This document shows, in pieces, positions 21,101 through 64,000 of a stretch of DNA of 64,000 bases. Both the position numbers and the translations under genes were made by a program. The DNA lies in assembly GCF_964355755.1 (NCBI RefSeq), contig NC_092675.1, positions 11,671,312 to 11,735,311 on the forward strand, read 5' to 3'. This DNA comes from Antedon mediterranea (Eukaryota; Echinodermata; Crinoidea; Comatulida; Antedonidae). The notes beneath the pieces were generated by a model. That model ran no database searches, was not told the origin of the DNA, and saw only the letters and a list, made by a program, of their open reading frames with translations. Each line of letters begins with the position of its first letter. Positions within the stretch are counted from its first letter, which is position 1.

Positions 21101-21655
21101 CGAAAAGCAGATGTGATTGCTAATGATATGCTATTGTGCTATTGAAGTCTAAGGGTTAAGTCTGACTGCTATAGCAGCTATTTTTGCTATAGCTGAAAAA
21201 ACAGTTATGGTTGCTATTGATTTGCTATTGTGCTATTGAAGTCCAAGGGTTAAGTGTTACTGCTATAGCAGCTATTTTTGCTATAGCTGAAAAAACAGTT
21301 ATGGTTGCTATTGATTTGCTATTATGCTATTGAAGTCTAAGGGTTAAGTGTTTGACCGCTATAGCAACTATTTCTGCTATAGCTGGAAAAGCAGTTGTGG
21401 TTACTGATATGCTATTATGCTATTGAAATATAAGGGTTAAGTGTTACTGCTATAGCAGCTATTTCTGCTATAGCTGGAAAAGCAGTTCTGGTTGCTACTG
21501 ATATGCTATTATGCTATTGAAATCTAAGGGTTAAGTGTTACTGCTACAGCTGCTATTTCTGCTATAGCTTAGAAAGCAGTTGTGGTTGCTACTGATATGC
21601 TATTGTGCTATTGAAGTCTAAGGGTTAAGTGTTTCAGTGCTATAGCAGCTATTGC
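18110..21655 (+). repeat. Satellite array 1, ~94-bp monomer, ~38 copies
   Basis: Each unit holds CTGCTATAGCAGCTATTTTT, GCTATAGCTGGAAAAGCAG, TTGCTATTGATTTGCTATTA and GGGTTAAGTGTTACTG. Measured spacing of CTGCTATAGCAG is 94-96 bp. A variant unit (TCGAAAAGCAGATGTGATTG) recurs about every 280-380 bp, indicating a 3-4 monomer higher-order period. The core CTGCTATAGCAG is a perfect palindrome followed by an AGCTAT..ATAGCT inverted pair. The array runs directly into the transposase remnant. Confidence 0.93.
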
Positions 21656-24245: not shown

Positions 24246-27200
24246 TAATCATGTAAAACGCCTGACGTGTATACCCTTTAAAAAAAACATTAATCCTGAC
24301 ATAAACCGCCAAGATCTAACCACCCTCATGTGAACCGCCTGACATGTATACCCATAAAAAAAACATCACTCCAGATGTAAACCGCCAAGATGTGACCACC
24401 TCATGTAAAATGCCTGACGTGTATAACCTAAAACAAAACATCACTCCAGATGTTAACCGCCAAGATCTAACCACCATAATGTAAAACGCCTGACGTGTAT
24501 AACCTAAAAAAAAAAACACTTCAGATGCAAACCACCAAGATCTGACCACCCTAACTGATCATGTAAAAAACGCCTGACGTGTATAACCTAAAAAAAAAAA
24601 AAAACATCACTCCAGATGTAAACCGCCAAGATGTAAAACGCCTGATGTGTAGAACCTTAAAAAAAACCATCACTCCAGATGTAAACCGCCAAGATCTAAC
24701 CACCGTCATGTGAAACGCCTGACGTGTATACCCATAAAAAAAAACATCACTCCAGATGTAAACTTCCAAGGTCTGACCACCCTCATCTAAAACCCCTGAC
24801 ATGTATACCCTAAAAAACATCACTCCAGATGTAAACCGCCAAGATCTGACCACCCACATGTGAAACGCCTAATGTGTATAACCTAAAAAAAAAAACAATC
24901 CAGATGTAAACCGCCAAGAACACCCTCAGGTAAAACGCCTGACGTGTATAACCTAAAAAAAAAGTCACTCCAGTGTAAACCGCCAAGATGTAAAACGCTC
25001 CTGACATAAACCGCCAAGATCTAACCACCCTCATTTGAAATGCCTGATGTGTATACCTTTAAAAAAAAACATCACTCCATATGTAAATATTTAGTTATGA
25101 CATTTAAATATTTTAGGATTGTGCTGTTTAAGATGAAAGTATTTGTAGTGTTCGGAATCCATTGTAAAAGCCTGATTGTTGTTGGTAAATAATAGTTGTT
25201 GTTGTCAATATGGATTATATTGTAGTATTAAAGATGTTTAAAAATATTTGGGAACTGGAATGTCAAAAATGGCTATATAGTTTTCTGGTTTGTTCCTTAA
25301 TAATCTCAACTATGATGTTGTAAACCGCCAAGATCTGAACAGCCTCATGTAAAACGCCTGACGTGTATAACCTATAAAAAAAAAATCACTCCAGTGTAAA
25401 CCGCCAAGATGTAAAACGCTCCTGACATAAACCGCTAAGATCTAACCACCCTCATGTGAAATGCCTGACGTGTATACCCATAAAAAAAAAACATCACTTC
25501 AGATGTAAACCGCCAAGATCTAACCACACTCGTATAAAATGCCTGACATGTATACCTTTAAAAAAAAACATCACTCCTGATGTAAACTGCCGAAATGGAT
25601 CCACCCTCATGTAAAACGCCTCACGTGCATACCCTTAAAAAAAACATTACTGCTGATCTAAACCGGCAAGATCTAACCACCCTCATGTGAAACGCCTGAC
25701 GTGTATAACCTAAAAAAAAACATCACTCCAGATGTAAACCGCCAAGATCTAACCACCCTCATGTGAAACGCCTGACGTGTATAACCTAAAAAAAAACATC
25801 ACTCCAGATGTAAACCGCCAAGATCTAACCACCCTCATGTAAAACGCCTGACGTGTATAACCTAAAAAAAAAAACATCACTCCAGATGTAAACCGCCAAG
25901 ATCTAACCACCCTCATGTAAAACGCCTGACGTTTATACCCTTAAAAAAAACATCACTCCAGATGTAAACCGCCAAGATCTGACCACTCTCATGTAAAACG
26001 CCTGATGCGTATAACCTTAAAAAAAACATCATTCCATATGTAAACCGCCAAGATCTGACCACGCACTCTCATGTAAAACGCCTGACGTGTATAACCTAAA
26101 AAAAAACATCACTCCAGATGTAAACCGCCAAGATTTAACCACCCTCATGTAAAACGCCTGACGTGTATACCTTTAAAAAAAAACATTAATCCTGACATAA
26201 ACCGCCAAGATCTAACCACCCTCATGTGAAACGCCTGACGTGTATACCCATAAAAAAAACATCACTCCTGATGTAAACCGCCAAGATCTGAACACCCTCA
26301 TGTAAATCGCTTGACGTGTATAACCTAAAAAAAACATCACTCCAGATGTAAACCGCCAAGATCTAACGACCCTCATGTAAAACGACTGACGTGTATAACC
26401 TAAAAAAAAACATCACTCCAGATGTAAACCGCCAAGATCTAACCACCCTCATGTAAAACGCCTGACGTGTATAACCTAAAAAAAAACATCACTCCAGATG
26501 TAAACTGCCAAGATCTAACCACCCTCATGTAAAACGCCTGACGTGTATAACCTAAAAAAAACATCACTCCAGATGTAAACCGCCAAGATCTGACCACCCT
26601 CGTGTAAAACGCCTGACGTGTATAGGCCTACCCTTAAAAAAAACATTAATCCTGACATAAACCGCCAAGATCTAACCACCTTCATGTGAAACGCCTGACC
26701 TGTATACCCATAAAAAAAACATCACTCCAGATGTAAACCGCTAAGATCTGACCACCCTCATGTGAAACGCCTGACGTGTATAGGCCTACCCTTAAAAAAA
26801 CATTAATCCTGACATAAACCGCCAAGATCTAACCACCTTCATGTGAAACGCCTGACCTGTATACCCATAAAAAAAACATCACTCCAGATGTAAACCGCCA
26901 AGATCTGACCACTCTCATGTAAAACGCCTGATGCGTATAACCTTAAAAAAAACATCACTCCATATGTAAACCGCCAAGATCTGACCACGCACTTTCATGT
27001 AAAACGCCTGACGTGTATAACCTAAAAAAAAACATCACTCCAGATGTAAACCGCCAAGATTTAACCACCCTCATGTAAAACGCCTGACGTGTATACCTTT
27101 AAAAAAAACCATTAATCCTGACATAAACCGCCAAGATCTAACCACCCTCATGTGAAACGCCTGACGTGTATACCCATAAAAAAAACATCACTCCTGATGT

Positions 27201-30200
27201 AAACCGCTAAGATCTGAACACCCTCATGTAAATCGCCTGACGTGTATAACCTAAAAAAAAACATCACTCCAGATGTAAACCGCCAAGATCTAACCACCCT
27301 CATGTAAAACGCCTGACGTGTATAACCTAAAAAAAAAACATCACTCCAGATGTAAACTGCCAAGATCTAACCACCCTCATGTAAAACGCCTGACGTGTAT
27401 AACCTAAAAAAAACATCACTCCAGATGTAAACCGCCAAGATCTGACCACCCTCATGTAAAACGCCTGACGTGTATAGGCCTACCCTTAAAAAAAACATTA
27501 ATCCTGACATAAACCGCCAAGATCTAACCACCTTCATGTGAAACGCCTGACCTGTATACCCATAAAAAAAACATCACTCCAGATGTAAACCGCTAAGATC
27601 TGACCACCCTCATGTGAAACGCCTGACGTGTATAACCTAACAAAAAAAAACATCACTCCAGATGAAAACCGCAAAGATGTAAAACGCCTGACGTGTATAA
27701 CCTTAAAAAAAACATCACTCCAGATGTAAACCGCCAAGATCTAACCACCATCATGTGAAACGCCTGACGTGTATACCCATAAAAAAAACATCACTCCAGA
27801 TGTAAACTGCCAAGATCTGACCACTCTCATGTAAAACGCCTGACGTGTATACCCATAAAAAAAACATCACTCCAGATGTAAACCGCTAAGATCTGACCAC
27901 CCTCATGTGAAACGCCTGACGTGTATAGGCCTACCCTTAAAAAAACATTAATCCTGACATAAACCGCCAAGATCTAACCACCTTCATGTGAAACGCCTGA
28001 CCTGTATACCCATAAAAAAAACATCACTCCAGATGTAAACCGCCAAGATCTGACCACTCTCATGTAAAACGCCTGATGCGTATAACCTTAAAAAAAACAT
28101 CACTCCATATGTAAACCGCCAAGATCTGACCACGCACTTTCATGTAAAACGCCTGACGTGTATAACCTAAAAAAAAACATCACTCCAGATGTAAACCGCC
28201 AAGATTTAACCACCCTCATGTAAAACGCCTGACGTGTATACCTTTAAAAAAAACCATTAATCCTGACATAAACCGCCAAGATCTAACCACCCTCATGTGA
28301 AACGCCTGACGTGTATACCCATAAAAAAAACATCAATCCTGATGTAAACCGCTAAGATCTGAACACCCTCATGTAAATCGCCTGACGTGTATAACCTAAA
28401 AAAAAACATCACTCCAGATGTAAACCGCCAAGATCTAACCACCCTCATGTAAAACGCCTGACGTGTATAACCTAAAAAAAAAACATCACTCCAGATGTAA
28501 ACTGCCAAGATCTAACCACCCTCATGTAAAACGCCTGACGTGTATAACCTAAAAAAAACATCACTCCAGATGTAAACCGCCAAGATCTGACCACCCTCAT
28601 GTAAAACGCCTGACATGTATAGGCCTACCCTTAAAAAAAACATTAATCCTGACATAAACCGCCAAGATCTAACCACCTTCATGTGAAACGCCTGACCTGT
28701 ATACCCATAAAAAAAACATCACTCCAGATGTAAACCGCTAAGATCTGACCACCCTCATGTGAAACGCCTGACGTGTATAACCTAACAAAAAAAAACATCA
28801 CTCCAGATGAAAACCGCAAAGATGTAAAACGCCTGACGTGTATAACCTTAAAAAAAACATCACTCCAGATGTAAACCGCCAAGATCTAACCACCATCATG
28901 TGAAACGCCTGACGTGTATACCCATAAAAAAAACATCACTCCAGATGTAAACTGCCAAGATCTGACCACTCTCATGTAAAACGCCTGACGTGTATAACCT
29001 AAAAAAAAACATCACTCCAGATGTAAACCGCCAAGATTTAACCACCCTCATGTAAAACGCCTGACGTGTATACCTTTAAAAAAACCCATTAATCCTGACA
29101 TAAACCGCCAAGATCTAACCACCCTCATGTGAAACGCCTGACGTGTATACCCATAAAAAAAACATCACTCCTGATGTAAACCGCTAAGATCTGAACACCC
29201 TCATGTAAATCGCCTGACGTGTATAACCTAAAAAAAAACATCACTCCAGATGTAAACCGCCAAGATCTAACCACCCTCATGTAAAACGCCTTACGTGTAT
29301 AACCTAAAAAAAAAACATCACTCCAGATGTAAACTGCCAAGATCTAACCACCCTCATGTAAAACGCCTGACGTGTATAACCTAAAAAAAACATCACTCCA
29401 GATGTAAACCGCCAAGATCTGACCACCCTCATGTAAAACGCCTGACGTGTATAGGCCTACCCTTAAAAAAAACATTAATCCTGACATAAACCGCCAAGAT
29501 CTAACCACCTTCATGTGAAACGCCTGACCTGTATACCCATAAAAAAAACAACACTCCAGATGTAAACCGCTAAGATCTGACCACCCTCATGTGAAACGCC
29601 TGACGTGTATAACCTAACAAAAAAAAACATCACTCCAGATGAAAACCGCAAAGATGTAAAACGCCTGACGTGTATAACCTTAAAAAAAACATCACTCCAG
29701 ATGTAAACCGCCAAGATCTAACCACCATCATGTGAAACGCCTGACGTGTATACCCATAAAAAAAACATCACTCCAGATGTAAACTGCCAAGATCTGACCA
29801 CTCTCATGTAAAACGCCTGACGTGTATACCCATAAAAAAAACATCACTCCAGATGTAAACCGCTAAGATCTGACCACCCTCATGTGAAACGCCTGACGTG
29901 TATAGGCCTACCCTTAAAAAAACATTAATCCTGACATAAACCGCCAAGATCTAACCACCTTCATGTGAAACGCCTGACCTGTATACCCATAAAAAAAACA
30001 TCACTCCAGATGTAAACCGCCAAGATCTGACCACTCTCATGTAAAACGCCTGATGCGTATAACCTTAAAAAAAACATCACTCCATATGTAAACCGCCAAG
30101 ATCTGACCACGCACTTTCATGTAAAACGCCTGACGTGTATAACCTAAAAAAAAACATCACTCCAGATGTAAACCGCCAAGATTTAACCACCCTCATGTAA

Positions 30201-31985
30201 AACGCCTGACGTGTATACCTTTAAAAAAAACCATTAATCCTGACATAAACCGCCAAGATCTAACCACCCTCATGTGAAACGCCTGACGTGTATACCCATA
30301 AAAAAAACATCAATCCTGATGTAAACCGCTAAGATCTGAACACCCTCATGTAAATCGCCTGACGTGTATAACCTAAAAAAAAACATCACTCCAGATGTAA
30401 ACCGCCAAGATCTAACCACCCTCATGTAAAACGCCTGACGTGTATAACCTAAAAAAAAAACATCACTCCAGATGTAAACTGCCAAGATCTAACCACCCTC
30501 ATGTAAAACGCCTGACGTGTATAACCTAAAAAAAACATCACTCCAGATGTAAACCGCCAAGATCTGACCACCCTCATGTAAAACGCCTGACATGTATAGG
30601 CCTACCCTTAAAAAAAACATTAATCCTGACATAAACCGCCAAGATCTAACCACCTTCATGTGAAACGCCTGACCTGTATACCCATAAAAAAAACATCACT
30701 CCAGATGTAAACCGCTAAGATCTGACCACCCTCATGTGAAACGCCTGACGTGTATAACCTAACAAAAAAAAACATCACTCCAGATGAAAACCGCAAAGAT
30801 GTAAAACGCCTGACGTGTATAACCTTAAAAAAAACATCACTCCAGATGTAAACCGCCAAGATCTAACCACCATCATGTGAAACGCCTGACGTGTATACCC
30901 ATAAAAAAAACATCACTCCAGATGTAAACTGCCAAGATCTGACCACTCTCATGTAAAACGCCTGACGTGTATAACCTAAAAAAAAACATCACTCCAGATG
31001 TAAACCGCCAAGATTTAACCACCCTCATGTAAAACGCCTGACGTGTATACCTTTAAAAAAACCCATTAATCCTGACATAAACCGCCAAGATCTAACCACC
31101 CTCATGTGAAACGCCTGACGTGTATACCCATAAAAAAAACATCACTCCTGATGTAAACCGCCAAGATCTAACGACCCTCATGTAAAACGCCTGACGTGTA
31201 TAACCTAAAAAAAAACATCACTCCAGATGTAAACCGCCAAGATCTAACCACCCTCATGTAAAACGCCTGACGTGTATAACCTAAAAAAAAACATCACTCC
31301 AGATGTAAACTGCCAAGATCTAACCACCCTCATGTAAAACGCCTGACGTGTATAACCTAAAAAAAACATCACTCCAGATGTAAACCGCCAAGATCTGACC
31401 ACCCACATGTAAAACGCCTGACCTGTATACCCATAAAAAAAACATCACTCCAGATGTAAACAGCTAAGATCGACCCCCCTCATGTGAAACGCCTGACGTG
31501 AATAACCTAAAAAAAAAAACATCACTCCAGATGTAATTCGCCAAGATGTAAAACGCCTGACGTGTATACCCTAAAAAAAATATCACTCCAGATGTAAACC
31601 GCCAAGATCTGACCACCCTCATGTAAAACGCCTGACGTGTATACCCTTAAAAAAAACATCAATCCAGATGTAAACCGGCAAGATCTGAACACCCTCATGT
31701 AAAACGCCTAACGTGAATAACCTAAAAAAAACCATCACTCCAGATGTAATTCGCCAAGATGTAAAACGGCTGACGTGTATACCCTAAAAAAAACATCACT
31801 CCAGATGTAAACCGCCAAGATCTGACCACCCTCATGTGAAACGCATGACGTGTATAACCTAAAAAAAAAAACATCACTCCATGTGTAAACCGCCAAGATC
31901 TAACCACCCTCATGTAAAACGCCTGACGTGTATAACCTAAAAAAAACATCACTCCAGATGTAAACCGCCAAGATGTAAAATGCCT
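24246..31985 (+). repeat. Satellite array 3, ~76-bp monomer, ~100 copies with 1,977-bp higher-order repeat
   Basis: The monomer contains CATCACTCCAGATGTAAACC, GCCAAGATCTAACCACCCTC and GTAAAACGCCTGACGTGTAT followed by an A-run. In the right part the same distinctive monomer series repeats at exact offsets: landmarks at 27,148, 28,293, 29,125 and 30,270 are spaced 1,145, 832 and 1,145 bp, so the true period is 1,977 bp (about 26 monomers). A second landmark series (27,534, 28,679, 29,511, 30,656) gives the same 1,977. The left part (24.2-26.6 kb) is more diverged and is interrupted at about 25,085-25,315 by a copy of the element's unique sequence. Confidence 0.95.
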
Positions 31986-32284
31986 TTGTTATATTATTTG
32001 GCTTTAACTATGGTATGGTGTAGTTGAAATATAGCAACTATAGCAGCTATAGCTGAGGTTTCAGGCAAGTGACAGTAGGATAGTGATATAACAGCTATCC
32101 CAAGGCTATTTGCAGCCTGTTTTGTATAGATGATGTGAAGCAATTGCAGAGGTATTTGTTTGCTGTTTATAATACCAAAGCTATCCCAAGGCTATTTTCA
32201 GCCTGGCTATATCAATTATAGCAACTGCAAGTTATTTCCATGTTATTTATGTTGTATAAAATACAGCACTTACACAGCTATTTA
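31986..32284. other. Spacer between arrays 3 and 4
   Basis: Contains GCTATAGCAGCTATAG words resembling array 1 and CTATCCCAAGGCTATTT twice. No coding signal. Confidence 0.6.
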
Positions 32285-33507
32285 ATTGCTATTATTTGCT
32301 ATTATTGCTGTATCAGGTATAGCAATTATACAGCTATTTGTTTGCTATTATTTGCTATTATTGCTGTATCAGGTATAGCAATTACACAGCTATTTGTTTG
32401 CTATTAATTGCTATTATTGCTGTATCAAGTATAGCAATTATACAGCTATTTGTTTGCTATTATTTGCTATTATTGCTGTATCAAGTATAGCAATTATACA
32501 GCTATTTGTTTGCTATTATTTGCTATTATTGCTGTATCAGGTATAGCAATTATACAGCTATTTGTTTGCTATGATTGCTGTATCAGGTATAGCAACTATA
32601 GCAGCTATAGCTGAGGTTTCAGGCAAGTGACCAATGTGTCACAGTAGGATAGTGATAGAACAGCAATAGCAATTACACAGCTATTTGTTTGCTATTATTT
32701 GCTGTTATTGCTGTATCAGGTATAGCAATTAAACAGCTATTTGTTTGCTATTATTGCTGTATCAGGTATAGCAATTATACAGGTATTTGTTTGCTATTAG
32801 TTGCTATTTTTGCAATATACACAGCTATTTGTTTGCTATTAATTGCTATTATTGCTGTATCAGGTATAGCAATTACACAGCTATTTGTTTGCTATTATTT
32901 GCTATTATTGCTGTATCAGGTATAGCAATTACACAGCTATTTGTTTGCTATTATTTGCTATTATTGCTGTATCAGGTATAGCAATTACACAGCTATTTGT
33001 TTGCTATTAATTGCTATTATTGCTGTATCAGGTATAGCAATTATACAGGTATTTGTTTGCTATTAGTTGCTATTTTTGCAATATACACAGCTATTTGTTT
33101 GCTATTAATTGCTATTATTGCTGTATCAGGTATAGCAATTACACAGCTATTTGTTTGCTATTATTTGCTATTATTGCTGTAAAAGGTATAGCAATTACAC
33201 AGCTATTTGTTTGCTATTATTTCCTATTATTGCTGTATCAGGTATAGCAATTACACAGTTATTTGTTTGCTATTATTTGCTATTATTGCTGTATCAGGTA
33301 TAGCAATTACACAGCTATTTGGTTGCTATTATTTGCTATTATTGCTGTATCAGGTATAGCAATTACACAGCTATTTCATTGCTATTATTTGCTATTATTG
33401 CTGTAAAAGGTATAGCAATTACACAGCTATTTGTTTGCTATTAATTGCTATTATTGCTGTATCAGGTATAGCATTTACACAGCTATTTGTTTGCTATTTA
33501 TTGCTAT
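32285..33507 (+). repeat. Satellite array 4, ~56-bp monomer, ~21 copies
   Basis: The unit is CAGCTATTTGTTTGCTATTA, TTTGCTATTATTGCTGTATC, AGGTATAGCAATTACA. Anchors at 32,331, 32,387 and 32,443 give a 56-bp period. A variant block (GTTGCTATTTTTGCAATATA) occurs twice 266 bp apart. ORFs through it are periodic artefacts. Confidence 0.93.
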
Positions 33508-40944: not shown

Positions 40945-42125
40945 TTAAGACAAGGAATGACATGGTTTAATGTTTTTAAAGTGATATATATGTATTATTT
41001 TCCAAAAAACGTCCAAAATTGCAGGGAAGGGGTCTTTAAAATTATAATTTACCTTGAGATCGTTAAATAATTGTATCATTGAATTCAAAGTTAATACCCA
41101 TCCATTTATGCAAGCAATTTTTAAAATAGACCCATCCTTCACTTTCCACGATTGTATCCACTCAATACATTCATTCCAAAATGGAATATGCAGTGAATTT
41201 TCAGTAACTGGCAATCTATATTTCACCTTATTATTAAAATTACGTGAGTTACAACTATCAAAGAGTTTGTAAAATTTATCAATAAATTCTGCAGGGTGAA
41301 CGGCCTCTGGTTTGATTTTACCAAGTGAAGCATATGTATAAATCCCTGAAGCCACACTATGTGTTTGGACGTTAATTTGGGAGCCATTCTTAAGGGTAGT
41401 TTTGAGTCGTTGTCATAAAACTTAACTATATGGTTCCATTTTATTTCATTTTCATTAATGACAAACACATGACGCTTTAAATTATTTCTTATATTTTTTA
41501 GAAGGTGCGATGGGTCATACATAAAAAATATTTTCTGCTTTTCATCAGTACCATCCATCCATTCTATGTAAGGCTTATTCTCATTAACCCCTAATTCATT
41601 AAACATTTTTCTGTTGTTTGACCCCTGGTCGGCTACAACAGCCTTAACGATGAGCCCAGTCCTTTGTAGCAAAGTAATGCACTCCTTTAATAGAATAATT
41701 TGTCTGTAACCTGACGTTGCCCCTACAGACAGAAAATAACCCAAAGGTTGTTTCCATTTTGTTTTCATCCTTCTAACCATGAAAACCAGGGCCTGAGTTG
41801 CAACTTTTTTGGTTCTTCCAAGATTGCCAAAATCTTCCATACCTTCAATTATATCTTTTTGGACATCATAATGTAGAGCACCTTTAATACTCATTTCATC
41901 AACCATTAATACACATACTTTATCCTCATCACTGAACATGCTGCAACGTGTTTTCAGCGATGTAAACGTTGCCTCGTTAAATCCTGGTTTCATATCTATT
42001 CCCCTCAACCACTTTCTTAAAGACTGGTCATGTGGTAATACAAAGATGTTGCGAAGAAATTTATAGGCTCTTGGACATTGGTAATGCAAAGCATTTTTTT
42101 GTGTAGCGTCTACCTGTCTTGCCAT
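40945..42125 (-). pseudogene. P-element-like transposase catalytic core, frameshifted
   Basis: The 300-codon frame (41,223-42,125) begins with the conserved 'Y..PRAYKFLRNIFVLPHDQS' segment. It then has CVLMVDEMSIK (D76, likely first catalytic aspartate), KWKQPLGYF, VADQGSNNRKMF (D166), and FMYDPSHLLKNIRNNLK, a hallmark of P-superfamily transposases. Meaningful sequence stops at LRMAPKLTSKHI. The text then continues in another frame (HSVASGIYTYASLGKI, HPAEFIDKFYKLFDS) up to 40,945. About 20 residues normally found at the junction ('...lsVAAQvLS') are missing, so a small deletion accompanies the frameshift near 41,365. Confidence 0.88.
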
Positions 42126-42127
42126 AC

Positions 42128-43009
42128 TATGGAACGCCGTTTACGCAACATTTCAATGATATGAATTTTATGACGCGATATGTGAATTAAATGCATCGAT
42201 AGGAATTGAATGGCGCGATATATGAATGAAATGTTTTGAATTGAATGCTTTGAATTGAATGTTTTGAATGAAATGTTTTGAATGAAATGTTTTGAATGAA
42301 ATGTTTTGAATAAATTGTTTTGAATGCAATGTTTTGAATGAAATGTTTTGAATGAAATGTTTTGAATGAAATGTTTTGAATTAAATGTTTTAAATGAAAT
42401 GTTTTGAATGAAATGTTTGAATTGAATTGAAAAGTCAAACTATTGGTGGCGTATGTCATTCTCGCTCGCAATTTTTTTCTCAACCTCTTAGGCCTAAGCG
42501 TGGGTACCCTCATCTCCTTTCCACGCTGCCTTTACAGAGAATCCTAACAGACCTGGGTTCGGAAATATGTATTCCAATGTTTCAGGTCTGTTAGGATTCT
42601 TTGTAAAGGATCCATATTGATGACAGCGTGGAAAGGAGATGAGGGTACCCAGGCTTAGGCCTAAGAGGTTAAAACAAAATCGCGAGCGGGAATGACATAC
42701 GCCGCCAATAGTTTGACTTTTCAATTCAATTCAAACATTTCATTTAAAACATTTCATTCAAAACATTTCATTCAAAACATTTCATTCAAAACATTTCGTT
42801 CAAAACATTTCATTCAAAACATTTTATTCAAAACATTCAATTCAAAACATTTCATTCAAAACATTTCATTCAAAACATTCAATTCAAAGCATTCAATTCA
42901 AAACATTTCATTCATATATCGCGCCATTCAATTCCTATCGATGCATTTAATTCACATATCGCGTCATAAAATTCATATCATTGAAATGTTGCGTAAACGG
43001 CGTTCCATA
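42128..43009. mobile_element. 882-bp foldback palindrome inside the transposase gene
   Basis: TATGGAACGCCGTTTACGC at 42128 is matched by its complement ending at 43009. The arms stay complementary to a centre near 42,568 (AATCCTAACAGACCT ... AGGTCTGTTAGGATT). Each arm contains a TTTTGAATGAAATG microrepeat run, a TATCGCG word pair and a GGGTACC/TTAGGCCTAAG block. It interrupts the P-like transposase between its coiled coil and catalytic core, so it arrived after that element. ORFs made of FKTFHSKHFIQN are the microrepeat translated. Confidence 0.9.
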
Positions 43010-51869: not shown

Positions 51870-54210
51870 TAGTGATTGATTGTTAAAGTTACAAATTCAT
51901 AGCATGGTAAACACAATTTAAAATTTACTAGTTCTTGAACAGTAAAATAAACTTACCTATATAGATGGTAGGTATAGGTATTGGTCCAAATCTGTTTAAA
52001 ATGTTTTAGCCATTTTGGGTTGCCGCTATATATGTACCTAAAAAATAGTAATAGTAATAGTATAACATTATAATAAGAATTAATTAAAATTAACTTATTA
52101 AATTTACTATGGTTGCATACATACTAATTTGAATATGCAGTGATGAGCAAAAACAAATGTTAAAATTCATTATTTATAATAATTGTAATTATTACATACA
52201 GGGTAGGCCTATATGCCTTATGTCATTGCATAGGGTATATATAACCAGGTATCCTCATAATAAACATTATTTGTAATAAATACTGTAAATATATTAAAAA
52301 TAAAAATGAATAATAATTAAATAATAATATATAGGCATAGAGCCTCTAGGCCTAATTAGGTAGCCTACTAATACCTAGCCTATTGCTCTAGGCTAGGCTA
52401 AATAAGCTGGAAAGCTACTTCTCTGTAGGCTGCTAGTGCAAGAGAGCACAGGTCTAGCTAGTATATTAAAATAAAAATAGGGCCTATAATATAGGCCTAG
52501 CCTACCCAGCCAGTGGTAGTGATTGGTTGTTAATATTGAAAATTAATAGCATGGTAAACACAATTTAAAATTTACTAGTTCTTGAACAGTAAAATAAACT
52601 TACCTATAATATAGATGGTAGGTATAGGTATAGGTATTGGTCAAAATCTGTTTAAAATGATTTTTCCACTTCGGGTTGCCGCTATGTACCTAAAAAATAG
52701 TAAAACATTACTATAAGAATTAATTAAAATTAGCTTATTAAATTTAATATGGTTGCATACATACTAATTTGAATATGCAGTGATAAGCAAAAACGAATGT
52801 TTAAATTCATTATTTATAATATTGTAATTGTAATTATTACATACAGGGTAGGCATATATGCCTTATGTCATTGCATAGGGTATATATAACCAGGTATTCT
52901 CATAATAAACATTATTTAAATAAAATACTGTAAATATATTAAAACTAAAAATAATAATAATTAAATAATAATATATAGGCGTAGAGCCTAGACCTAATTA
53001 GGTAGTCTACTTATACCTAGCCTATTGCTCTAGGCTAGGCTAAATAAGCTGGAAAGCTGCTTCTCTGTAGGCTGCTAGTGTTAGAGAGCACAGGTCTAGC
53101 TAGTATATTAAAATAAAAATAGGGCCTATAATATAGGCCTAGCCTACCCAGCCAGTGGTAGTGATTGATTGTTAATATTGAAAATTAATAGCATGGTAAA
53201 CACAATTTAAAATTTACTAGTTCTTGAGCAATAAAATAAACTTACCTACTGTATATAGATGGTAGGCTGCTAGGTATTGGTCCAAATCTGTTTAAAATGT
53301 TTTTGCTACTTCGGGTTGCCGCTATGTACCTAAAAAATAGTAAAACATTATTATAAGAATTACTTAAAATTAGCTTATTAAATTTAATATGGTTGCATAC
53401 ATACTAATTTGAATATGCAGTGATGAGCAAAAACGAATGTTAAAATTCATTATTTATAATAATTGTAATTATTACATACAGGGTAGGCATATATGCCTTA
53501 TGTCATTGCATAGGGTATATATAACCAGGTATTCTCATAAGAAACATTATTTAAATAAATACTGTAAATATATTAAACAAAAATTAATAATAATTAAATA
53601 ATATTAGGCCTATATAGGCGTAGAGCCTAGCCTAATTAGGTAGCCTACTTATACCTAGCCTAATTGCTCTAGGCTAGGCTAAATAAGCTGGAAAGCTGCT
53701 TCTCTGTAGGCTGCTGCTAGTGATAGAGAGCACAGGTCTAGCTAGTATATTAAAATAAAAATAGGGCCTATGATATAGGCCTAGCCTACCCAGCCTAGCC
53801 TACCCAGCCAATGAATATGATGCTTGTCATTATTTATATTGTAATTATTACATACATATAGGCCTATAATATTCCCTATTGCATACATGTTACATAGGGT
53901 ATATATAATCCTCATAATATTAAATTTACAGTTTTTGTAATGAATACTGTAAATTTAATAAAACTAAAATTAATTATAATGATTAAATAATATTAAAAAT
54001 ATATAGGCCTAGGCGTAGATCCTGGGCCTAATTTTAATTAGGTAGCCTACTAATACCTATTAGGCTAGTAGGCTAGCCTACTCAAGGCCAGGCTAACTAA
54101 GCCGGAAAGCTGCTTCTCTGTAGTAGGCTGCTAGAGAACACAGGTCTAGCAAGGGCCTAGGCCTAGTATTAAAATAAAAATAGGGCCTATAATATTGGTA
54201 TATGCCTACC
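51870..54210. repeat. Tandem repeat, ~645-bp unit, three copies plus a partial fourth
   Basis: AGCATGGTAAACACAATTTA occurs at 51,901, 52,548 and 53,190 (647 and 642 bp). Each unit continues through GGGTTGCCGCTATGTACC, CATACAGGGTAGGC and an AGGCCTA-rich stretch to AGCACAGGTCTAGC. A degraded fourth copy covers 53,820-54,210. On the - strand each unit carries an exon-like cassette (see findings). Confidence 0.92.
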
Positions 54211-54829
54211 CTACCCAGCCAGGCCTAAATAATTAAAATAATGTAACATTTCCAAACTCATTTGGGTCAGCTGTCACATGAAAGGCAGTGTTGCAACTAG
54301 AGTAGACATAAGCCTAAGCCTAAAAATGACACAATTTGAAACGGCCATAGCTCAAAAATTCAACCATCACCTCTCGACCATTACTATGTTATAACATTCA
54401 CAGATAACTAAATTATCATGCAGTACCAAAGAATTAGAGTGAAAATTACATTTTTTAAAGATACGGACAAACAAACATGTACCTAATTTGGAAATGTCAC
54501 TCACGTGCGTAAATTGGTCTATGCTTGTAATTTATGGTCTACCCTTCCATTAATTTTCAGCGTTACATTCCTTCTTAAAAACAAAACGACAACGTGCTTG
54601 TTTCATCCAGGGACTCTTTAATGAATATTCATATTTTTAGCGACCCTTTATTTTTTTATCTCATTCTCATTGGCTGTTTAAAACATGTCTTTAAATGACG
54701 TTTGACTCCACTCTGCACACGTGGATTTGTAAGTAATTGTTTATGTATTGTTACTCCAGCGATACGACTTGTAACGTTGAGGGCGCATGACTTAATTCGT
54801 ATGTTTGAAACAGCTGTGTAATGGAGAAG
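54211..54829. other. Spacer
   Basis: A - strand 92-codon frame (54,656-54,934) overlaps the next repeat and has no domain. Nothing else seen. Confidence 0.4.
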
Positions 54830-55500
54830 TTTTTTAAAAAATGACCGGAAATGCCTGTTTTGACCTTTGACCATAAATTTGTACATAAGCGAAATTGGTG
54901 TCAAAATACTCAGAAGACCCATATTTATATTCATTATAATGGAAAAGTTTTTAAAAAAATGACCGGAAATGCATGTTTTGAACTTTGACCCTAAATTTGG
55001 ATTATCTCAATATCTCATCAACGACTGGCCGTAGAGACTTCAAAGTTTTCCCAAATTATTCGGAATGCCCAACTTTCTATTTACTTTAATGAAAGAAAAA
55101 TACCAAAAACCTTTAGAAACCTTCTATTTTGACCTTTGAACTATTGACGTAGGCATATTTATTTTTATAGACATCTTGGTGATCGATAGGATACGAAATT
55201 GGTTTCAAAATTTATAACTTTGATCCTAAATTTGGGTTATCTCAACACCGCATCAACTGCTGGCCGTAGAGACTTCAAAATTGTCCTAAATTAAGCAGTG
55301 TGCCCAACTCTCTATTCACTGTAGTTAAAGAAAAATACTAAAAGCCTTTAGAAACCACCTATTTTGCCATTTGAACTATTGATCTGGCCAATACAATATT
55401 TTATATCATAATTAATATATAGAAATCTTGGTGATCGATAGGAATACATAAGCGAATTTGTTGTCAAAATATTCCAAAACACCCATGTTTTTTTACCTTT
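54830..55500 (+). repeat. Dispersed 'ATGACCGGAAATGC' family, with 235-bp tandem copies
   Basis: AAAATGACCGGAAATGC occurs twice (about 54,838 and 54,957), each followed by TGACCTTTGACC-like text. The block GTAGAGACTTCAAA occurs at 55,031 and 55,266 (235 bp). Related to the repeats at 3.8 and 10.5-11.6 kb. Confidence 0.8.
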
Positions 55501-55639
55501 GACTTTAATCACTATATTATAATTTAATAATTTAAGTCCCAAATAGCATGATGGACATATCATACCATTCATCATGCCATGAGATGTCAAATTTATCTGA
55601 AACAGCCTAGAAAAAATGTCCGATGGACGAATAATAATA

Positions 55640-56195
55640 CCATAAATATCAGTGTTTACCATTTTCCTTACGGGGGGGATTCAGTTCTCCGCTTATTACT
55701 AAATTATCGTCGCCCACACAATGTGCATGGTATGCATGTATTAGCGCGTTAATTAATGATTGGATAACCCCTGCAGTGGACTGTTCCATTTTCTGAACTA
55801 GTCTTCGCCGCACACGAGGCATGTCGAAAAATGTCGCCTCTCATGGAATATTTGCTTCGAAACGTCAATTTTACCGATTTATTAAATTATTTAATAAGTG
55901 GAATATTTATAAATCTACTATATAAAGCAAGTACGTTAGGAAGAAATGTACCGAAGAAATTTAAGAAGCTTTGATTTTGCTATGCAGCGGCCGTAAGCCA
56001 TTCTATGTAGGCGGCCGAAACGCGCTTTGGCCTGTGTTGCCGTTGTATGTCTACGCTGTTTCTAGGCCTAAATTTTATTCCGTATATTTCAATTCAAAGT
56101 GCAACTTTCGGTTAGAATAATCGAAAGGGAAATAAAATTAAACATGCTACAATTATACCATTGAGGTAATTACTTTGTTAAATAAAAAATTTCTT
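55640..56195 (+). repeat. ~540-bp repeat, inverted partner of 48,426-48,965
   Basis: See the partner entry. It contains CGGCCGAAACGCGCTTTGGC and AATAATCGAAAGGGAAATAA in the opposite sense to the other copy. Confidence 0.88.
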
Positions 56196-56559
56196 CCCGA
56201 TATTTCTTAGGCAGAATTTAGCGTCAGGCTTTTATTTAGATCTTGCTAGCTAGGGGCCTATCTTAACTTGTAGTAGGCGCGGCCGAGTCTACGTTCGGCC
56301 CGGCGCTCCAAATGGAATCGAACACATAATAAGCACGGGCTTAATTCTTATTTTTGGCGGTTCGAAAATCAATTTAAATAACATATGATTATAAATATAA
56401 CTTTAAATACTAGAATTATTAAAAAAATGTATACTTACGAAAAATAATATTTAATGAAAAGAAACAATACCCACACAGTTTTTTAACGCAATATTTTTTT
56501 TTTTCACATTTTAACATTTTTTAACAATATTTTATGTTGTATTTCAGAATTACCGAGAC
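56196..56559. other. Spacer
   Basis: AT-rich, no gene or repeat recognised. Confidence 0.4.
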
Positions 56560-57130
56560 GGGTTGGTGAATTTTGTCCAAGATGGGGAAATTTCTGTCCA
56601 GAATGGGGAAATATTTTGTCCAGAATAAGGACAAAAGCGATAGGTGGCGCTATAATCGTGTCCAAGATGGGGAAGCTGTCCAATATAGAGAAATCCGATT
56701 TGTCCAAAATGGGGAAATTTCTGTCCAAGATGGGGAAGTGGTGGCGCTATATCGTGTCCAAAATGGGGAAATTTCTGTCCAGGATGGGGAAGTGGTGGCG
56801 CTATATCGTGTCCAAAATGGGGAAATTTCTGTCCGGGATGGGGAAGTGGTGGCGCTATATCGTGTCCAAAATGGGGACATTTCTGTCCAGGATGGGCTTA
56901 TGCTGTGTCAAAAATAGGCAGCTGTCCATATAGAGAAATCAGATTTGTCCAAAATGGGGAAATTTCTGTCCAGGATGGGGAAATTTCTGTCCAGAATGGG
57001 GAAGTGCTGTGTCCAAGATGGTGAAGCTGTCCAATATAGAGAAATCCGATTTGTCCAAAATAAAGACATTTCTGTCCAAAATGGGGAAGTGCTGTGTCTA
57101 AAATAGGGAAGCTGTACAATATAGAGAAGG
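56560..57130 (+). repeat. 54-bp minisatellite and related units
   Basis: GTGGCGCTATATCGTGTCC occurs at 56,741, 56,795 and 56,849 (54 bp each). Between these lie TCCAAAATGGGGAAATTTCT and GTCCAGGATGGGGAAG. Because 54 is a multiple of three, long frames appear on several strands; these are artefacts. Confidence 0.92.
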
Positions 57131-57299
57131 CAAAACATTAACACAACATAAGAAACTTTTTTTTGTTTTAAAAACTTTAATTAAGTTCACACTTCTAATC
57201 TGAAAACATTACAAAATGTACACAATAATAACAGTACTATGTTAACACTTTAAAAGTACATTTGAAGTGGAAAAGTGTTCTATTAATTAAATAATTAAC

Positions 57300-59102
57300 A
57301 CCGTTATCAGCTAATTTTAAGTATAATAAACATTTAGTGAGGGATGTGGTTCCAATTTACTTCTAAAGTAAATTTTCACTGAATGTATACATTTATCTGA
57401 CGTTAAAAACTACAGTATATTATATTAAATTCCAACCATAAAAACCACAACAGAAAGTAGTACCGTCACCGCCCTTATTATACCACATCAAGAAAGAGTA
57501 CAGGATATTTATTACTATAATTAATACAGGTTGTCACTTTTTTTTTTATCATCTACCAATTTCTTTTTATTTCCTTCTCTATCTCTACCTTTTTATCTTT
57601 TTTTAAACCTTTTTTTCGACCACAGACCACGAGTATTAATCTATCGTCCCACAGGTAAAATTCAGGCTCAAAATAGGCTCTTATCCCCTTAAAATAATTA
57701 CGGTACTCAGCCTGGAAACAGTTTCAAAGTACAGGTTGGTAAATATGACACCTTTATCAGCTATTTTTAAGTATAATGAACATTTATTGAGTGAAATGGT
57801 TCCAATTTACCTCTAAAGTAAATTTTCACTGATTCTATACATTTTTATCTAACGTTAAAAACTACAGTATATTATATTAAATTCCAACCATAAAAACCAC
57901 AACAGAAAGTAGTACCGGCACCGACATCATTATACCACATCAAGAAAGCGTACATGATATTTATTAATATAATTAATACAGGTTGTCGCTTCTTTTCCTT
58001 CTTTTTATCCTTTTTCTTTTTTTATTTTTTTCTTTATTTTTTAAATATTTTTTTTACCACAGACCGCGGGTATTAACCTTGAGTTATTATAGTAACTCAA
58101 TGGTTTAAAATCAAACGTACACGCTGAATCATTAATTTCCAACTATAAACAAAGTAATATCATTGACAAATCGAGCTATATTTGGCCTAATTTTTCTCAT
58201 TTTACAATAGTATACGAGTGTTTGCATATTAGTAACATTAGTGCTTTAATTGCGTTATTTCCTACTCCAAATAGGCATAGTTTAGGGCTAATGATTATGT
58301 TGATATTAAAATATGATTACAGCCAGTGCTTTGCATTTTCTGTAAGGTTTATCATGCTCAATTAGATTTATTTTTTTGGTTAAATTTCTCTCAAAAACTT
58401 TGTGTCTATACAAATGTTATTAGTGAGCAACTATTCTATCAATGTGTATTCCTTTAAATTTACCAGGGAGTGAATTGTTATGCTGATTTATTATGTCTAC
58501 TTATGTTAATCGTTAAAAACTACTGTATATTATATTAAATTCCAACCATAAAAACCACAAAAGAAAGTAGTACCACATCAAGAAAGAGTAGGCCTACAGG
58601 ATATTTATTAATATAATTAATACAGATTGTCCCTTCTTTTCCTTCTTTTTATCCTTTTTATTTTTTTATTTTTTTCTTTATTTGTTTTTTATTTTTTTTT
58701 TTGTATTTATTTTTTTTTTTACCACAGACCGCGGGTATTAATCTACAGTCACATGCAGTAATTCCACATAGAATTTCGACCACATGATGGAATCCTTGAG
58801 TTATTATAGTAACTCAATGGTTTAAAATCAAACGTACACGCCAACTCATTAATTTCCAGCTATAAACAAAGTGATATCATTGACAAATCGTGTGTCTGCA
58901 TATTAGTAACATAGTATTAATTAGTGCTTTAATTGCGTTATTTCCTACTCCAAATAGGCATAGTTTAGGGCTAATAATTATGTTGATATTAAAATACGAT
59001 TACAGCCAGTGCTTCGCATATTCTGTAAGGTTTATCATGCTCAATTAGATTTATTTTTTTGGTTAAATTTCTCTCAAAAACTTTGTGTCTATACAAATGT
59101 TA
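57300..59102. repeat. Segmental tandem duplications downstream of the transposase gene
   Basis: GTTAAAAACTACAGTATATT with its flank occurs at about 57,402, 57,854 and 58,512. CCTTGAGTTATTATAGTAAC occurs at 58,077 and 58,794 (717 bp). The duplicated part includes a copy of the last 27 codons and stop of the adjacent ORF (58,420-58,503). T-rich tracts separate the copies. Confidence 0.9.
59050..59055 (-). terminator. Candidate poly(A) signal AATAAA
   Basis: AATAAA on the - strand lies about 48 bases after the stop codon of the transposase ORF, a usual distance for cleavage and polyadenylation. Confidence 0.5.
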
Positions 59103-62100
59103 TTAGTGAGCAACTATTCTGTCAATGTGTATTCCTTTAAATTTACCAGGGAGTGAATTGCTGTGCTGATTTATTATGGCTACTGATGTTCTTCCCATTT
59201 TCATGAAAACTTTCCCATGCTGCCGGTCATCTCTAATTCCATCAAGAAAAATTTTCATATGGATCATTTCATGAGCCATAGTATTAAGCAATTCACTCGT
59301 CGAATCTGCAGCATTTTTACTATTAATATTTATTATTGATGAGGAACCAATTCTATTCTTATGCAATTGAAGTGTTTCTCCGTAAACATTACCTAAAGGT
59401 ACAAGAAACACATGATCCTCGGCCTTGGGTAACTTTCCCAAGTATACAATAGTATTTATGTAGTTGTAGAGCGAATGTATGTCCTTAACCATCTGTTGGT
59501 CTTGCTTGTGGGTCTCTCTTCTTGCTTCGGTTCGTAACCGCTCTTGTTGATCATATATTTTCTTTTTATGAGTACATCTTTCGCACATGGCATTTGTTAT
59601 GCATTCCTTATGATAAGGCTTGTGGCATGTAGAGCAGTTGATGACTTCTGGAGTGATAGGTGTGTTGCAGCAGTTTGTCAGAGGTATTGCGGACATCCTT
59701 GATGCAGGGGCATTGTGGCAGTTATCCTTTTCTAAATATCCACGCAAATCTCCCTTCTCAAATGCTTCAACAAGCTTTCGCCTAACAACCCTCTCGTCTT
59801 CTTCAAATCGTAGTGTTGATGGATCTTTTCCTGCACACAGTGCAGCAGCAAATGCTATACAAAAATGGCCACAAGTGTTACTTGCATAAGGTTGTTGCTG
59901 TACACCATGTACGTGAAAATTCATGTTGGGAACGCCGGGTTCCATCAACTTGCATGCTACCTGAGTCAATTCTAATGGGTAATTTCTTGGATTCAATGTC
60001 TGTAAACTATCGTACACATCGACGTTACTATTGGTAAGTTGTTGGTACCAATGCTTGTCTGATATTGTAATCCAGTGCGAGTTTCTCAGGTTTATAAATT
60101 GTACATATTGTGTAGTCTTGACAAAATTGTGCATTTGCTGTTGATAGATGGTGTCTTGTAATCCACGTGTTTCTGGATAGTTTCTCTTTAGAATTATGTT
60201 GGCGGCATTTATAATCCTATCATCTACCTCATTATGTCTCTCTTCTACAAGCTTTTTATGGTGTAACCTTAGTTGGTATTCCTCCAGCCACCAGTCATTG
60301 GGTTCATCAGTCGTTTGTACTACAACATTTGACTTGGGCGTTGAAATAATCAGTCTTCCAAGACTATCTTTCGTTGTTTTCAGACCGAACGACTTGTTAA
60401 TGTACTTAATATGGTTGCCATTTAATTTATTATTTCGACGGTGTACTAAGGATTTTACCATAAATAAATGATTCGCTATTGACATTTCATTTAAAAAATG
60501 CTTGGACTTATTTAATTCGGAATAAAATTGTTCTGCAACTTGTGTATTTGTTTTAGACTTCAATTGTGGTACAAAATTAATTTTCCGCAAAATTTCAGTT
60601 TCACTGTTTGTGTTAGCCTCATGAAATCGGTCAAAAAGCGCGTACGTGCTGCTTTGTCCAGTTACAGGATGCCCGGTTTCCGACGTCGCACGAAGCCCAT
60701 TAAGCCATGGCATGTCCATTAATAAAGTATTAGCTTTTGCACACCGAATATTCTCCTCTGTAGAATCAGCTACTCTTCCTTCGAACGGAAAGAACATTGG
60801 CTCTGTTTGACCATCATAATGCAAATTGTTACCAAATTTTGCAACAATGTGTGCCATGTCCACAATTATTATATTTGGCTTATGTTTCATCGACATGATT
60901 ATGTCTGTGTAATCTCGAGGCGATTCTGCTCGTAGGACAAACTTAATTCCGTAGACTACTCCATGGGGACAATGTGATGTTAATATTCCCCCGGAACACC
61001 CCCAGATTTTCTTCATTATTTTATTGAAATTATTATGGTTCTTGGCTAAAGCCTCCCTTATACTACAAATAATGTCCAACTTACTTCCCTTTGATGCAAG
61101 ATTGATAGTTTTAGCTATTTTCTTGACTTCCTTAACAGTAGATTGGTGGAGCATCTCAAAAAGTCTCTCCTTACTCATATGTCTGCAGTCAGCAGTCAAG
61201 TTACCGTCTTCTGAAACTTTCCTGAATTCTGTGTTGTAAATTAAATTGTCTTTTCTTGTATGCTCACCGATAAACGGAGACCATTCGTTCAGACCAGCCG
61301 TTATTGGAAAAGGATTTACTGCTGACTGATGCATGAGGCCTCTAGATAGTATATGCAAACTAACTCGTTCATAAAATTCTATGCAATCTACTTTTTCTTT
61401 ACATTTATGAGGCTTGCCAAGTTCAGACAAAGCTGTCCTAAAATGAACCTTTCTGTTCACATCCATGATCATTATTGTGGGATGGTAACCACATATATTG
61501 CAATGCATATCTTCATTGATGTTTGATTGAGCTTCAAATGCTAAATAAGCATTCAACACCAATGTTTGATCAATTTCTATGCCCGATGTTTCGCATATCT
61601 GCTTAACAATGCTACCAGTAGCTATGTGATGATCCACGCCTGACCTAAGCCATAGGCAAACATCAAATCCAATACAAAATGAATCATTATAGTTATAAAT
61701 ACCAAGTTCATAATCCTTGTAATGGTAAGTCATTGAACATTGTGGGCACTTTTTGTGATACACTAATATATCGTGCAAGCCATTCATTGAAAGGAGCCTT
61801 CCAGTTCGATATGCTTTTTGAGGTGGACCTAAATTAACATTGCATTTCTGACATACTTTTTCTGACGGAACGACCTCTTTAGACCACATTCCGGTTTTTG
61901 GAATAAACTCCTTGATCTGCAATGGGATTCGTTTATGGTTGAAAATGTATATAGCTTCGTCTTTAGCCTGATCCGTGACCGTTTTGCTATTATTGTCAGT
62001 TTGTTGTGTTTGTTCGGTTTCATTTGACTTTATGATTGAATCTTGTGATAAACGCCAAAGGCACATGCCTTTATGTACACATGGAACTTTGCGTTTGCAG

Positions 62101-63119
62101 CATTTGCAGTCAATTGCTTTCGTTTTAGCATCATATGTACATACTACCCGTTCAAGCTGTGCATAATAGTGACTTTCGCCCTCAAAGACCGACAGATGCT
62201 GGTAACGTCCATCACTAAAGTAGGCTACAGGTGGTGTGTTATGGTATTTTGCCAAATCATTTAAGGTCTTACATTTTTCAATTGTACTAGATGACAAAGC
62301 TTTAAATGACCCTGAAACAGATAAATTTTCTAGAAAAATCTCGTCTAATGGAGTGAACGAACTATATACCGCCCGTGAAGCTTCTTGTAGATGTTGGCAT
62401 TCAAAAACAGGCAAGCCGCTTGCTCCTGCAACATCCATGATAACACGACAATCTGTTAATTCACAGAAAGAAAACCTTGGATTTGGACCTATATTGGTTT
62501 TCTGGACATGACAGGGGTATGCAACACCACCATGGGAGCTCCTTCTAACAAGGAATATTCCTTTATTTACATCTATACAGATTCCTGTAACTTTGTTGGG
62601 TTTAGGTTTTTTGTTTTTTCCATATTCCATCTCATATTTTCGCTTTGAAGAGGGATCTTTACTATTGCATGTGTTATTGTCTTCCTTCCCTTCTTGTTCA
62701 TCAGTAGCTGTTTCATTTATTTTGGTGTTACTATCTGCATTTTCTTTGATGTTCGTTTGCTTGTTTCCTTTATCAACATTGGTTTCACAGAAATCATGAT
62801 TTTTACTTTCATTACATTCAAATCTATGAGTATCACGTAGGTGTTTCAGCATCCTGTCTCTTCTACACATTATTTTATTACACTCCGGGCAATGATAGTG
62901 ATACCTATCAGTGTCCGTCTGGGGCTCATGTGGAAGTTTGCATGCTATTATCAGGAAAATGCCATAATTAATTCCATGATTTAAATGTTTTGTTTTTATA
63001 TGTCTTTTTAACTTTGATTTAAACTTCCAATTGTTTAGCACACAATAATGGCATGAATGACTATCTGCTATCTCATTAATTATCCTATCTGTATCTATTA
63101 ACTTTATGGAAAATGCCAT
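59103..63119 (-). CDS. Giant KDZ-type transposase with Ulp1-like and SprT-like protease domains
   Basis: The open frame reaches 63,167 (1,354 codons), but the ATG at 63,119 has a near-ideal Kozak context (AACACCATGG), so 1,338 residues is likelier. Numbering below is from 63,167. Two C2H2 fingers: C39/C42/H56/H61 and C93/C96/H109/H114. Acidic linker 120-190. A CxC-x6-CxH (SWIM-like) cluster at C354-H365. A CxC5/6-like zinc segment (C439/C442, C474/C477). A CNICGYHPTIMIMD block at 556-569, matching the KDZ 'CxxC...D' first strand (D569). SAP-like helices 663-710. HGVVYGIKFVLRAESPRDYT (735-754), NIIIVDMAH (D770) and NTQVAEQFYSELN (E879) complete a plausible RNase-H D/D/E core. A Ulp1/C48-like protease follows (H1031, D1052, Q1091 or Q1092, C1099 in NTCGHFC), then a PHD/RING-like finger (1166-1198) and a SprT-like zincin (HEMIH 1299-1303, H1317). 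It looks intact and would act in the nucleus. Domain calls are by eye; HMGXB3-like proteins are a related possibility. Confidence 0.85.
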   Translation of the reverse strand: MAFSIKLIDTDRIINEIADSHSCHYCVLNNWKFKSKLKRHIKTKHLNHGINYGIFLIIACKLPHEPQTDTDRYHYHCPECNKIMCRRDRMLKHLRDTHRFECNESKNHDFCETNVDKGNKQTNIKENADSNTKINETATDEQEGKEDNNTCNSKDPSSKRKYEMEYGKNKKPKPNKVTGICIDVNKGIFLVRRSSHGGVAYPCHVQKTNIGPNPRFSFCELTDCRVIMDVAGASGLPVFECQHLQEASRAVYSSFTPLDEIFLENLSVSGSFKALSSSTIEKCKTLNDLAKYHNTPPVAYFSDGRYQHLSVFEGESHYYAQLERVVCTYDAKTKAIDCKCCKRKVPCVHKGMCLWRLSQDSIIKSNETEQTQQTDNNSKTVTDQAKDEAIYIFNHKRIPLQIKEFIPKTGMWSKEVVPSEKVCQKCNVNLGPPQKAYRTGRLLSMNGLHDILVYHKKCPQCSMTYHYKDYELGIYNYNDSFCIGFDVCLWLRSGVDHHIATGSIVKQICETSGIEIDQTLVLNAYLAFEAQSNINEDMHCNICGYHPTIMIMDVNRKVHFRTALSELGKPHKCKEKVDCIEFYERVSLHILSRGLMHQSAVNPFPITAGLNEWSPFIGEHTRKDNLIYNTEFRKVSEDGNLTADCRHMSKERLFEMLHQSTVKEVKKIAKTINLASKGSKLDIICSIREALAKNHNNFNKIMKKIWGCSGGILTSHCPHGVVYGIKFVLRAESPRDYTDIIMSMKHKPNIIIVDMAHIVAKFGNNLHYDGQTEPMFFPFEGRVADSTEENIRCAKANTLLMDMPWLNGLRATSETGHPVTGQSSTYALFDRFHEANTNSETEILRKINFVPQLKSKTNTQVAEQFYSELNKSKHFLNEMSIANHLFMVKSLVHRRNNKLNGNHIKYINKSFGLKTTKDSLGRLIISTPKSNVVVQTTDEPNDWWLEEYQLRLHHKKLVEERHNEVDDRIINAANIILKRNYPETRGLQDTIYQQQMHNFVKTTQYVQFINLRNSHWITISDKHWYQQLTNSNVDVYDSLQTLNPRNYPLELTQVACKLMEPGVPNMNFHVHGVQQQPYASNTCGHFCIAFAAALCAGKDPSTLRFEEDERVVRRKLVEAFEKGDLRGYLEKDNCHNAPASRMSAIPLTNCCNTPITPEVINCSTCHKPYHKECITNAMCERCTHKKKIYDQQERLRTEARRETHKQDQQMVKDIHSLYNYINTIVYLGKLPKAEDHVFLVPLGNVYGETLQLHKNRIGSSSIININSKNAADSTSELLNTMAHEMIHMKIFLDGIRDDRQHGKVFMKMGRTSVAIINQHSNSLPGKFKGIHIDRIVAH

Positions 63120-63167
63120 GGTGTTTATACAATTAAAATTAACAATAGAGTAGAAATCAATAAACAA

Positions 63168-64000
63168 TCAATGATTACAGTAGCCTATTCAATACAAACA
63201 TTACATTACAAAATGTACCGGTACTGACAAGTGTTCCTCTTGCAAAACTTTATCAGTGGCCCTACGAATAACAAATAACCAATCAAAAGCACCTGTTAAT
63301 ACAAAAAAAACAATGAAAATGATGTGACTACTTATTCTAATAAAATTACATAGAATTGTAATAAAATGAAAATATTTTACTAGGATATGGATTTATTTAT
63401 TATTTTATCATCAGGTTACGGTGATTGTTTTTTTATTTCAAAGTAAAATACTCAAATTCACGTTTATAGTTCATTAATTAAATTAATAGATCATAATTTT
63501 TTTTAATGTCACCAACCAAATATACAGTACACTCATCTTGACCAACTTAATTTACGACATGCATTTACATATTATGCAGATCGGAATATTATATCACTCT
63601 TAGATATGATAAATAATTACTGTATGTGATTTTAAACAAACTATTCTTGAAAAGACCTAATAATAAACAGTAAACAACATGTAGTTACCATTAGTACTTC
63701 GAAAATCTTATTTGGTTAATAATAGCTTTGAAAACAAGTAAAAACCAACATAAATAAAACAATCACTATTTGTAGTTGAATGACCGATGACAACAGTGTT
63801 CCGTTCTTTTTGCAAAATTGCATCAAAATCTCTTCAATGAAAAGCAGCCACACCTAATACAAAAAAATGATATAAAGTTTAGAATTTCCCAAATTGTATT
63901 GCAAAAGATAGGACATCAAACTAGTTAAGCACTTACTTTCACTACTTTTAGGCCCTGTCCTCCCATTAAAGAAAAGGGGAATACCCCCCCCCCCCCCACA
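63168..64000. other. 5' flank of the transposase gene
   Basis: AT-rich. On the - strand a GTAAGT donor lies at 63,931-63,936 and an acceptor-like TTGAATAG near 63,187, so a 5' non-coding exon may lie at or beyond 63,937. A C-homopolymer (15 or so) lies at the window end. No terminal repeat of the element is visible before the window ends. Confidence 0.35.

Follow-up and report, generated by a model that had tools for sequence, protein, structure and literature searches.

A Zisupton-type transposase frame in Antedon mediterranea with predicted Ulp1-type and SprT-type proteases at its end

Zisupton elements, of the Kyakuja-Dileera-Zisupton (KDZ) group of DNA transposons, have subterminal inverted repeats, and a Ulp1 domain is a known trait of their protein. 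The protein that Bohne reportedly described in 2012 unites zinc fingers, a SWIM-type motif, a SAP part and the Ulp1 domain, and work by Iyer in 2014 may have resolved whether Zisupton has a DDE core. A 2013 paper, in the excerpt cited, still placed Zisupton among the superfamilies without a DDE transposase (PMC3706591). Excerpts from other sources give the target-site duplication as 8 bp (PMC12730594) and the Zisupton genes as multi-exonic (PMC9297572). Here we describe an uninterrupted, intact frame on the minus strand of a 64-kb stretch of the crinoid Antedon mediterranea (contig NC_092675.1; hereafter the window). By its sequence and predicted structure, it almost certainly encodes a protein of the fish Zisupton type, extended by a tail of a Ulp1-type protease, a PHD-like finger and a SprT-type zincin (Table 1). 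A SprT-type domain in a transposase was not reported among the literature matches listed, which do not cover the founding Zisupton and KDZ papers.

Table 1 Features of the transposase frame and of the adjoining tandem array.
Feature	Residues	Window position	Strand	Details
Whole open frame		59103..63167	-	1354 codons
C2H2-like finger 1	39-61	62985..63053	-	sequence; region collinear with P0003 and P0032
C2H2-like finger 2	93-114	62826..62891	-	sequence; CPxC...H collinear in P0003 and P0032
SWIM-type CxC...CxH motif	354-365	62073..62108	-	3-way alignment
CxC4 cysteine cluster	430-512	61632..61880	-	Pfam PF18717
Predicted RNase-H-like DDE transposase core	555-912	60432..61505	-	D569, D770, E879
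SAP-like insert	661-723	60999..61187	-	between D569 and D770
Ulp1/C48-type cysteine protease	983-1148	59724..60221	-	H1031, D1053, Q1091, C1099
PHD-like zinc finger	1164-1198	59574..59678	-	degenerate in window copy
SprT-type zincin	1225-1354	59106..59495	-	zinc ligands H1299, H1303, H1317; catalytic E1300
Tandem units, ~660-683 bp		57850..59190		one begins within the final 88 bp of the frame

The assignment was based on homology along the length of the transposase. A first search recovered two relatives among 3998 candidates, P0002 (Holothuria leucospilota, a sea cucumber; 32% over 1239 columns) and P0003 (EukProt; 34% over 1012 columns). A profile built from these two and the window protein recognized, among the 7991 candidates listed, at least 66 proteins at E ≤ 0.001. 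One of them is P0032 from Xiphophorus hellerii, whose alignment with the window protein starts at the C2H2 fingers and runs to the core end (31% identity over 947 columns, E 3e-129). P0032 carries CxC4, a sub-threshold SAP, C48, a sub-threshold F-box and CxC7 at 1333-1391; in the part of PMC12062965 cited, the platyfish Zisupton protein has its CxC7 at 1333-1393. From these domain positions we infer that P0032 is a Zisupton. Both proteins share the order of finger-like N-terminus, SWIM-type region, CxC4, SAP, D/D/E core and C48 protease, and the window protein holds zinc fingers, SWIM-type motif, SAP and Ulp1 together. They differ at the end: P0032 closes with its F-box and CxC7, without a PHD or SprT match at E ≤ 1, whereas the window protein closes with SprT. 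The genes differ as well, the fish ones being multi-exonic according to the same excerpt of PMC9297572, and the window gene uninterrupted.

The original prediction, made from the letters of the window, had called the protein a KDZ transposase. The group stands, specifically as the fish Zisupton type. The Pfam KDZ transposase model PF18758, in contrast, matched none of the window protein, P0002 and P0003 at E ≤ 10, did not match P0032 at E ≤ 1, and was absent among the matches listed (25 of 38 Pfam families) for 28 aligned members. We rejected it as the family label and therefore filed the protein by homology to fish Zisupton. Other parts of the prediction were borne out. The two C2H2 fingers were recognized by sequence and by collinearity with P0003 and P0032, and among the CxC/SWIM-like zinc motifs C354, C356, C363 and H365 were invariant in the 3-way alignment, while PF18717 scored 28.6 bits against a cut-off of 26.9 when residues 190-960 were scanned. 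The three acidic residues of the proposed D569/D770/E879 triad sit on an RNase-H-like fold in the structure model; this backs, on structural grounds, the view that Zisupton has a DDE core. When the core model was compared by Foldseek, no match was significant and the top rows were unrelated. Among the closest known systems, the ISCth4 transposase (complex 6xg8) comes from a bacterial insertion sequence, has ~400 residues in its solved chain and shows 14% identity. The assignment of SAP and Ulp1 in the window copy came from structure and family profiles; neither gave a Pfam match there.

For the tail, the Ulp1 part scored 137.8 bits with a profile from which the window copy was left out. His, Asp and Cys with an upstream Gln were all present, and invariant in the nine proteins that carry the whole tail. 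The catalytic triad had been given as H1031/D1052/C1099; its His and Cys were upheld, and the Asp is D1053. The first Foldseek match was SENP5 (E 7e-3, probability 0.97, TM by target 0.35). The window copy shares the H/D/Q/C residues of the Ulp1/SENP (C48) SUMO proteases and has otherwise diverged from these enzymes. The expected PHD/RING-like finger kept its six ligands in all nine proteins (C1178, C1181, H1186, C1189, C1195, C1198) and proved weak in the window copy, with no Pfam match and a score of 4.8 bits, below the best shuffles. A secure PHD was thus rejected for this copy; the other eight matched Pfam PHD at E ≤ 0.1, P0023 alone above the curated cut-off. The HEMIH zincin did prove SprT-like: by sequence and model, an HExxH motif and a downstream third His lie on a predicted SprT fold, and H1299, E1300, H1303 and H1317 are invariant in 9/9. 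A profile of five SprT parts gave weak matches in the PDB, the two human SPRTN chains being the only ones at E ≤ 10 (E 0.08). The SprT domain of SPRTN (Spartan) has 20% identity to that of the window, which is fused behind a transposase and Ulp1. SPRTN carries C-terminal interaction motifs; they are absent here because the frame stops right behind the SprT domain. Both proteases are predicted, with good confidence, to be active; in SprT-type enzymes the activity is zinc- and DNA-dependent.

The tail recurred in related sequences. After P0069-P0072 had been added by searching with the P0006 tail, the zincin was found in 9 of 75 proteins among the matches listed: the window protein (P0001), P0002, P0005 from a second sea cucumber, Apostichopus japonicus, and P0006, P0023, P0069, P0070, P0071 and P0072. 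Each of the nine has the Zisupton core, either whole or partial. At E ≤ 0.1, Pfam recognized SprT in 9/9, C48 in 8/9 and PHD in 8/9, and above the curated cut-offs in three, six and one, respectively. The SprT profile gave 160-216 bits for the nine and at most 1.8 for the other 66; it was trained on those same nine, a circularity from which the leave-window-out profile is free. Pfam was also run on 7 of 10 chosen Ulp1-bearing relatives. Transposase, Ulp1 and SprT in one intact frame, as first proposed, are thus supported by profile, structure and comparison, with C48-type and SprT matches both in hand, and since the same tail recurs the fusion is no accident. The earlier statement that Ulp1-like proteases occur in transposons including KDZ agrees with the C48 of P0032. 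A SUMO-type protease was also seen on a different mobile-element enzyme: P0073 and P0074, the latter from the sponge Ephydatia muelleri, fuse a Ulp1-type protease to a retroviral-type integrase (rve). P0069 is filed under a metagenome-assembled Sedimenticola sp., a bacterial bin, despite its animal-type Zisupton tail, and is probably animal or host DNA within that bin.

Eight relatives keep the zincin and some lack it, partly by loss. The tree held 61 of 72 core-bearing proteins, those spanning 230 or more model positions and running through to the core end; it is unrooted, and the window row sits on a long branch with uncertain placement. All nine zincin proteins fell in a 23-row group (100/100). 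None of the 38 rows outside it has a zincin, and 37 of these come from named fishes. Within the group, several of the other rows are cut short, so that absence in these says little. P0003, P0004 and P0007 do extend beyond the PHD-like finger. In all three the Ulp1 Cys is replaced by Ser, its Gln is lost and the zincin ligands are gone, while the finger retains its six zinc ligands. They belong to a five-row clade (starred in the tree) nested in a 19-row set with seven of the nine zincin proteins. This nesting suggests at least one joint loss of the two proteases.

We read the frame, with a probability of about 0.6, as coding for the transposase of a DNA transposon of the Zisupton type, in a subgroup with a conserved tail. 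In transposition generally, the gaps that flank a strand-transfer product contain single- and double-stranded DNA. Cutting and joining of the element ends would fall to the DDE core. The Ulp1 part may strip SUMO from the transposase or from repair and chromatin proteins nearby, leaving the complex unmarked for host removal. SprT, like SPRTN, would become active on DNA that is partly single- and partly double-stranded, such as the gapped strand-transfer product, and would then cleave the transposase along with other proteins held tightly there; with the site cleared, the flanking gaps could be filled. Such activation of SPRTN, and the help of SUMOylation in resolving DNA-crosslinked proteins, are described in the excerpts of PMC7826251 and PMC8441304. 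Clearing of the insertion site is a tentative suggestion for the use of SprT. That the transposase has a built-in disassembly, in which its own Spartan-type protease, triggered by the branched or gapped product, digests the transposition complex and the SUMO protease delays SUMO-directed host removal until then, is rather doubtful. Phage Mu borrows the host ClpX for disassembly; if the idea is true, a eukaryotic element would carry in its transposase what Mu takes from its host.

Several points weigh against this interpretation. Fish Zisuptons work without SprT, which is thus not required for transposition as such. To our knowledge, DDE transposition leaves no lasting covalent protein-DNA link, so that a SPRTN-like protease would be without an obvious classical substrate. 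Foldseek alone gave no match at E ≤ 0.001 for either structure model, and the Ulp1 part of the model has low confidence. The window, which stops 833 bp upstream of the frame, showed no ends of an element, no target-site duplication and no second copy.

Alternatively, the tail could serve against silencing: the PHD-like finger would read chromatin, Ulp1 de-SUMOylate silencing complexes and SprT destroy repressors on chromatin, which would keep the element expressed; the protease targets would be host silencers, not the transposition complex. The finger lies between both proteases in 9/9, as judged by its Cys/His ligands, although it is degenerate in the window copy. SUMO-dependent repression is described for Drosophila rDNA (PMC7676866, excerpt). 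Fungal KDZ transposons, likewise with an added enzyme, have TET/JBP dioxygenases thought to undo methylation-based silencing, in the cited part of PMC12730594; there the dioxygenase is a gene encoded by the element, whereas here the proteases are fused into the transposase. We consider this use unlikely, but worth weighing. Since the known partners of SprT are DNA-bound proteins generally, the two uses are inseparable by sequence. In our judgement, little is known about the removal of eukaryotic DDE transposases from DNA after insertion, or about the ways in which elements handle SUMO control. In this Zisupton subgroup a SUMO protease and a protease of the DNA-protein-clearing type both sit on the transposase itself, and as their signature residues are simple to mutate, both questions are testable.

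An immobile, HMGXB3-like host gene derived from Zisupton, with a host role in DNA-protein clearance, is improbable. Several relatives bear database names like "HMG domain-containing protein 3", and neither ends nor a second copy of the coding body were found inside the window. No inverted repeat above the control was present between 63121-64000 and 52001-59110, and a search for the DNA of relatives in genome and viral contigs, for ends and introns, confirmed no locus. Immobile transposase-derived genes often lose the DDE triad, but here it is intact. The surroundings of the frame are also rich in repeats, and the window holds a P-element relic as well. The 90%-identity clusters of relatives are large (P0006 41 sequences, P0071 16, P0072 50, P0008 175), which would fit either a multicopy element or orthologues.

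A fresh processed copy of a multi-exonic Zisupton gene (PMC9297572, excerpt), or a dying copy, itself immobile, would explain the uninterrupted frame, and has a similarly small chance. The 3' end of the frame lies within a tandem duplication, and downstream, on the coding strand, there is an A-rich stretch at 58640-58720. This stretch is impure and recurs in the adjacent tandem unit, and is therefore no clean poly(A) tail; a source gene would in any case carry the identical architecture. Chance read-through into unrelated downstream coding DNA has next to no chance and was rejected: the zincin is in few of the listed proteins, many others being cut short, but nine share the domain order and the invariant catalytic residues.

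The likely translation start is the first ATG of the frame, residue 17 (63119-63117). Tandem units extend downstream over 57288-59190, and the stop codon lies inside the duplicated part; 58920-59190 repeats 58237-58507 at 96.7% identity, and 58507-58699 repeats 57850-58055 at 85.5%.

Only one other start-codon frame of at least 150 aa was present in the window, a P-element-type transposase open reading frame of 300 aa at 41223-42125 (-), with Pfam TNP-like_RNaseH_N (137.3 bits) and P-element HTH and GTP-binding insertion parts. A full P transposase is longer, and this one is probably a relic. It adjoins a large inverted repeat (42128-43009; 288-nt arms, 97% complementary, 306 nt apart) with many 14-bp minisatellite units. 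An Rfam scan of the window gave 0 matches at the gathering threshold. The G + C content ranged from 28 to 41% in 2-kb steps, and minisatellites were many, as is typical of animal DNA, with three long arrays (18131-21653, 24249-31978 and 32253-33507). The second, of 76/152-bp units, had a strong strand asymmetry (GC skew -0.32 to -0.38, AT skew +0.25 to +0.32). The palindrome TAGGCCTA occurred 39 times in the window, where ~0.65 occurrences are expected from base composition alone.
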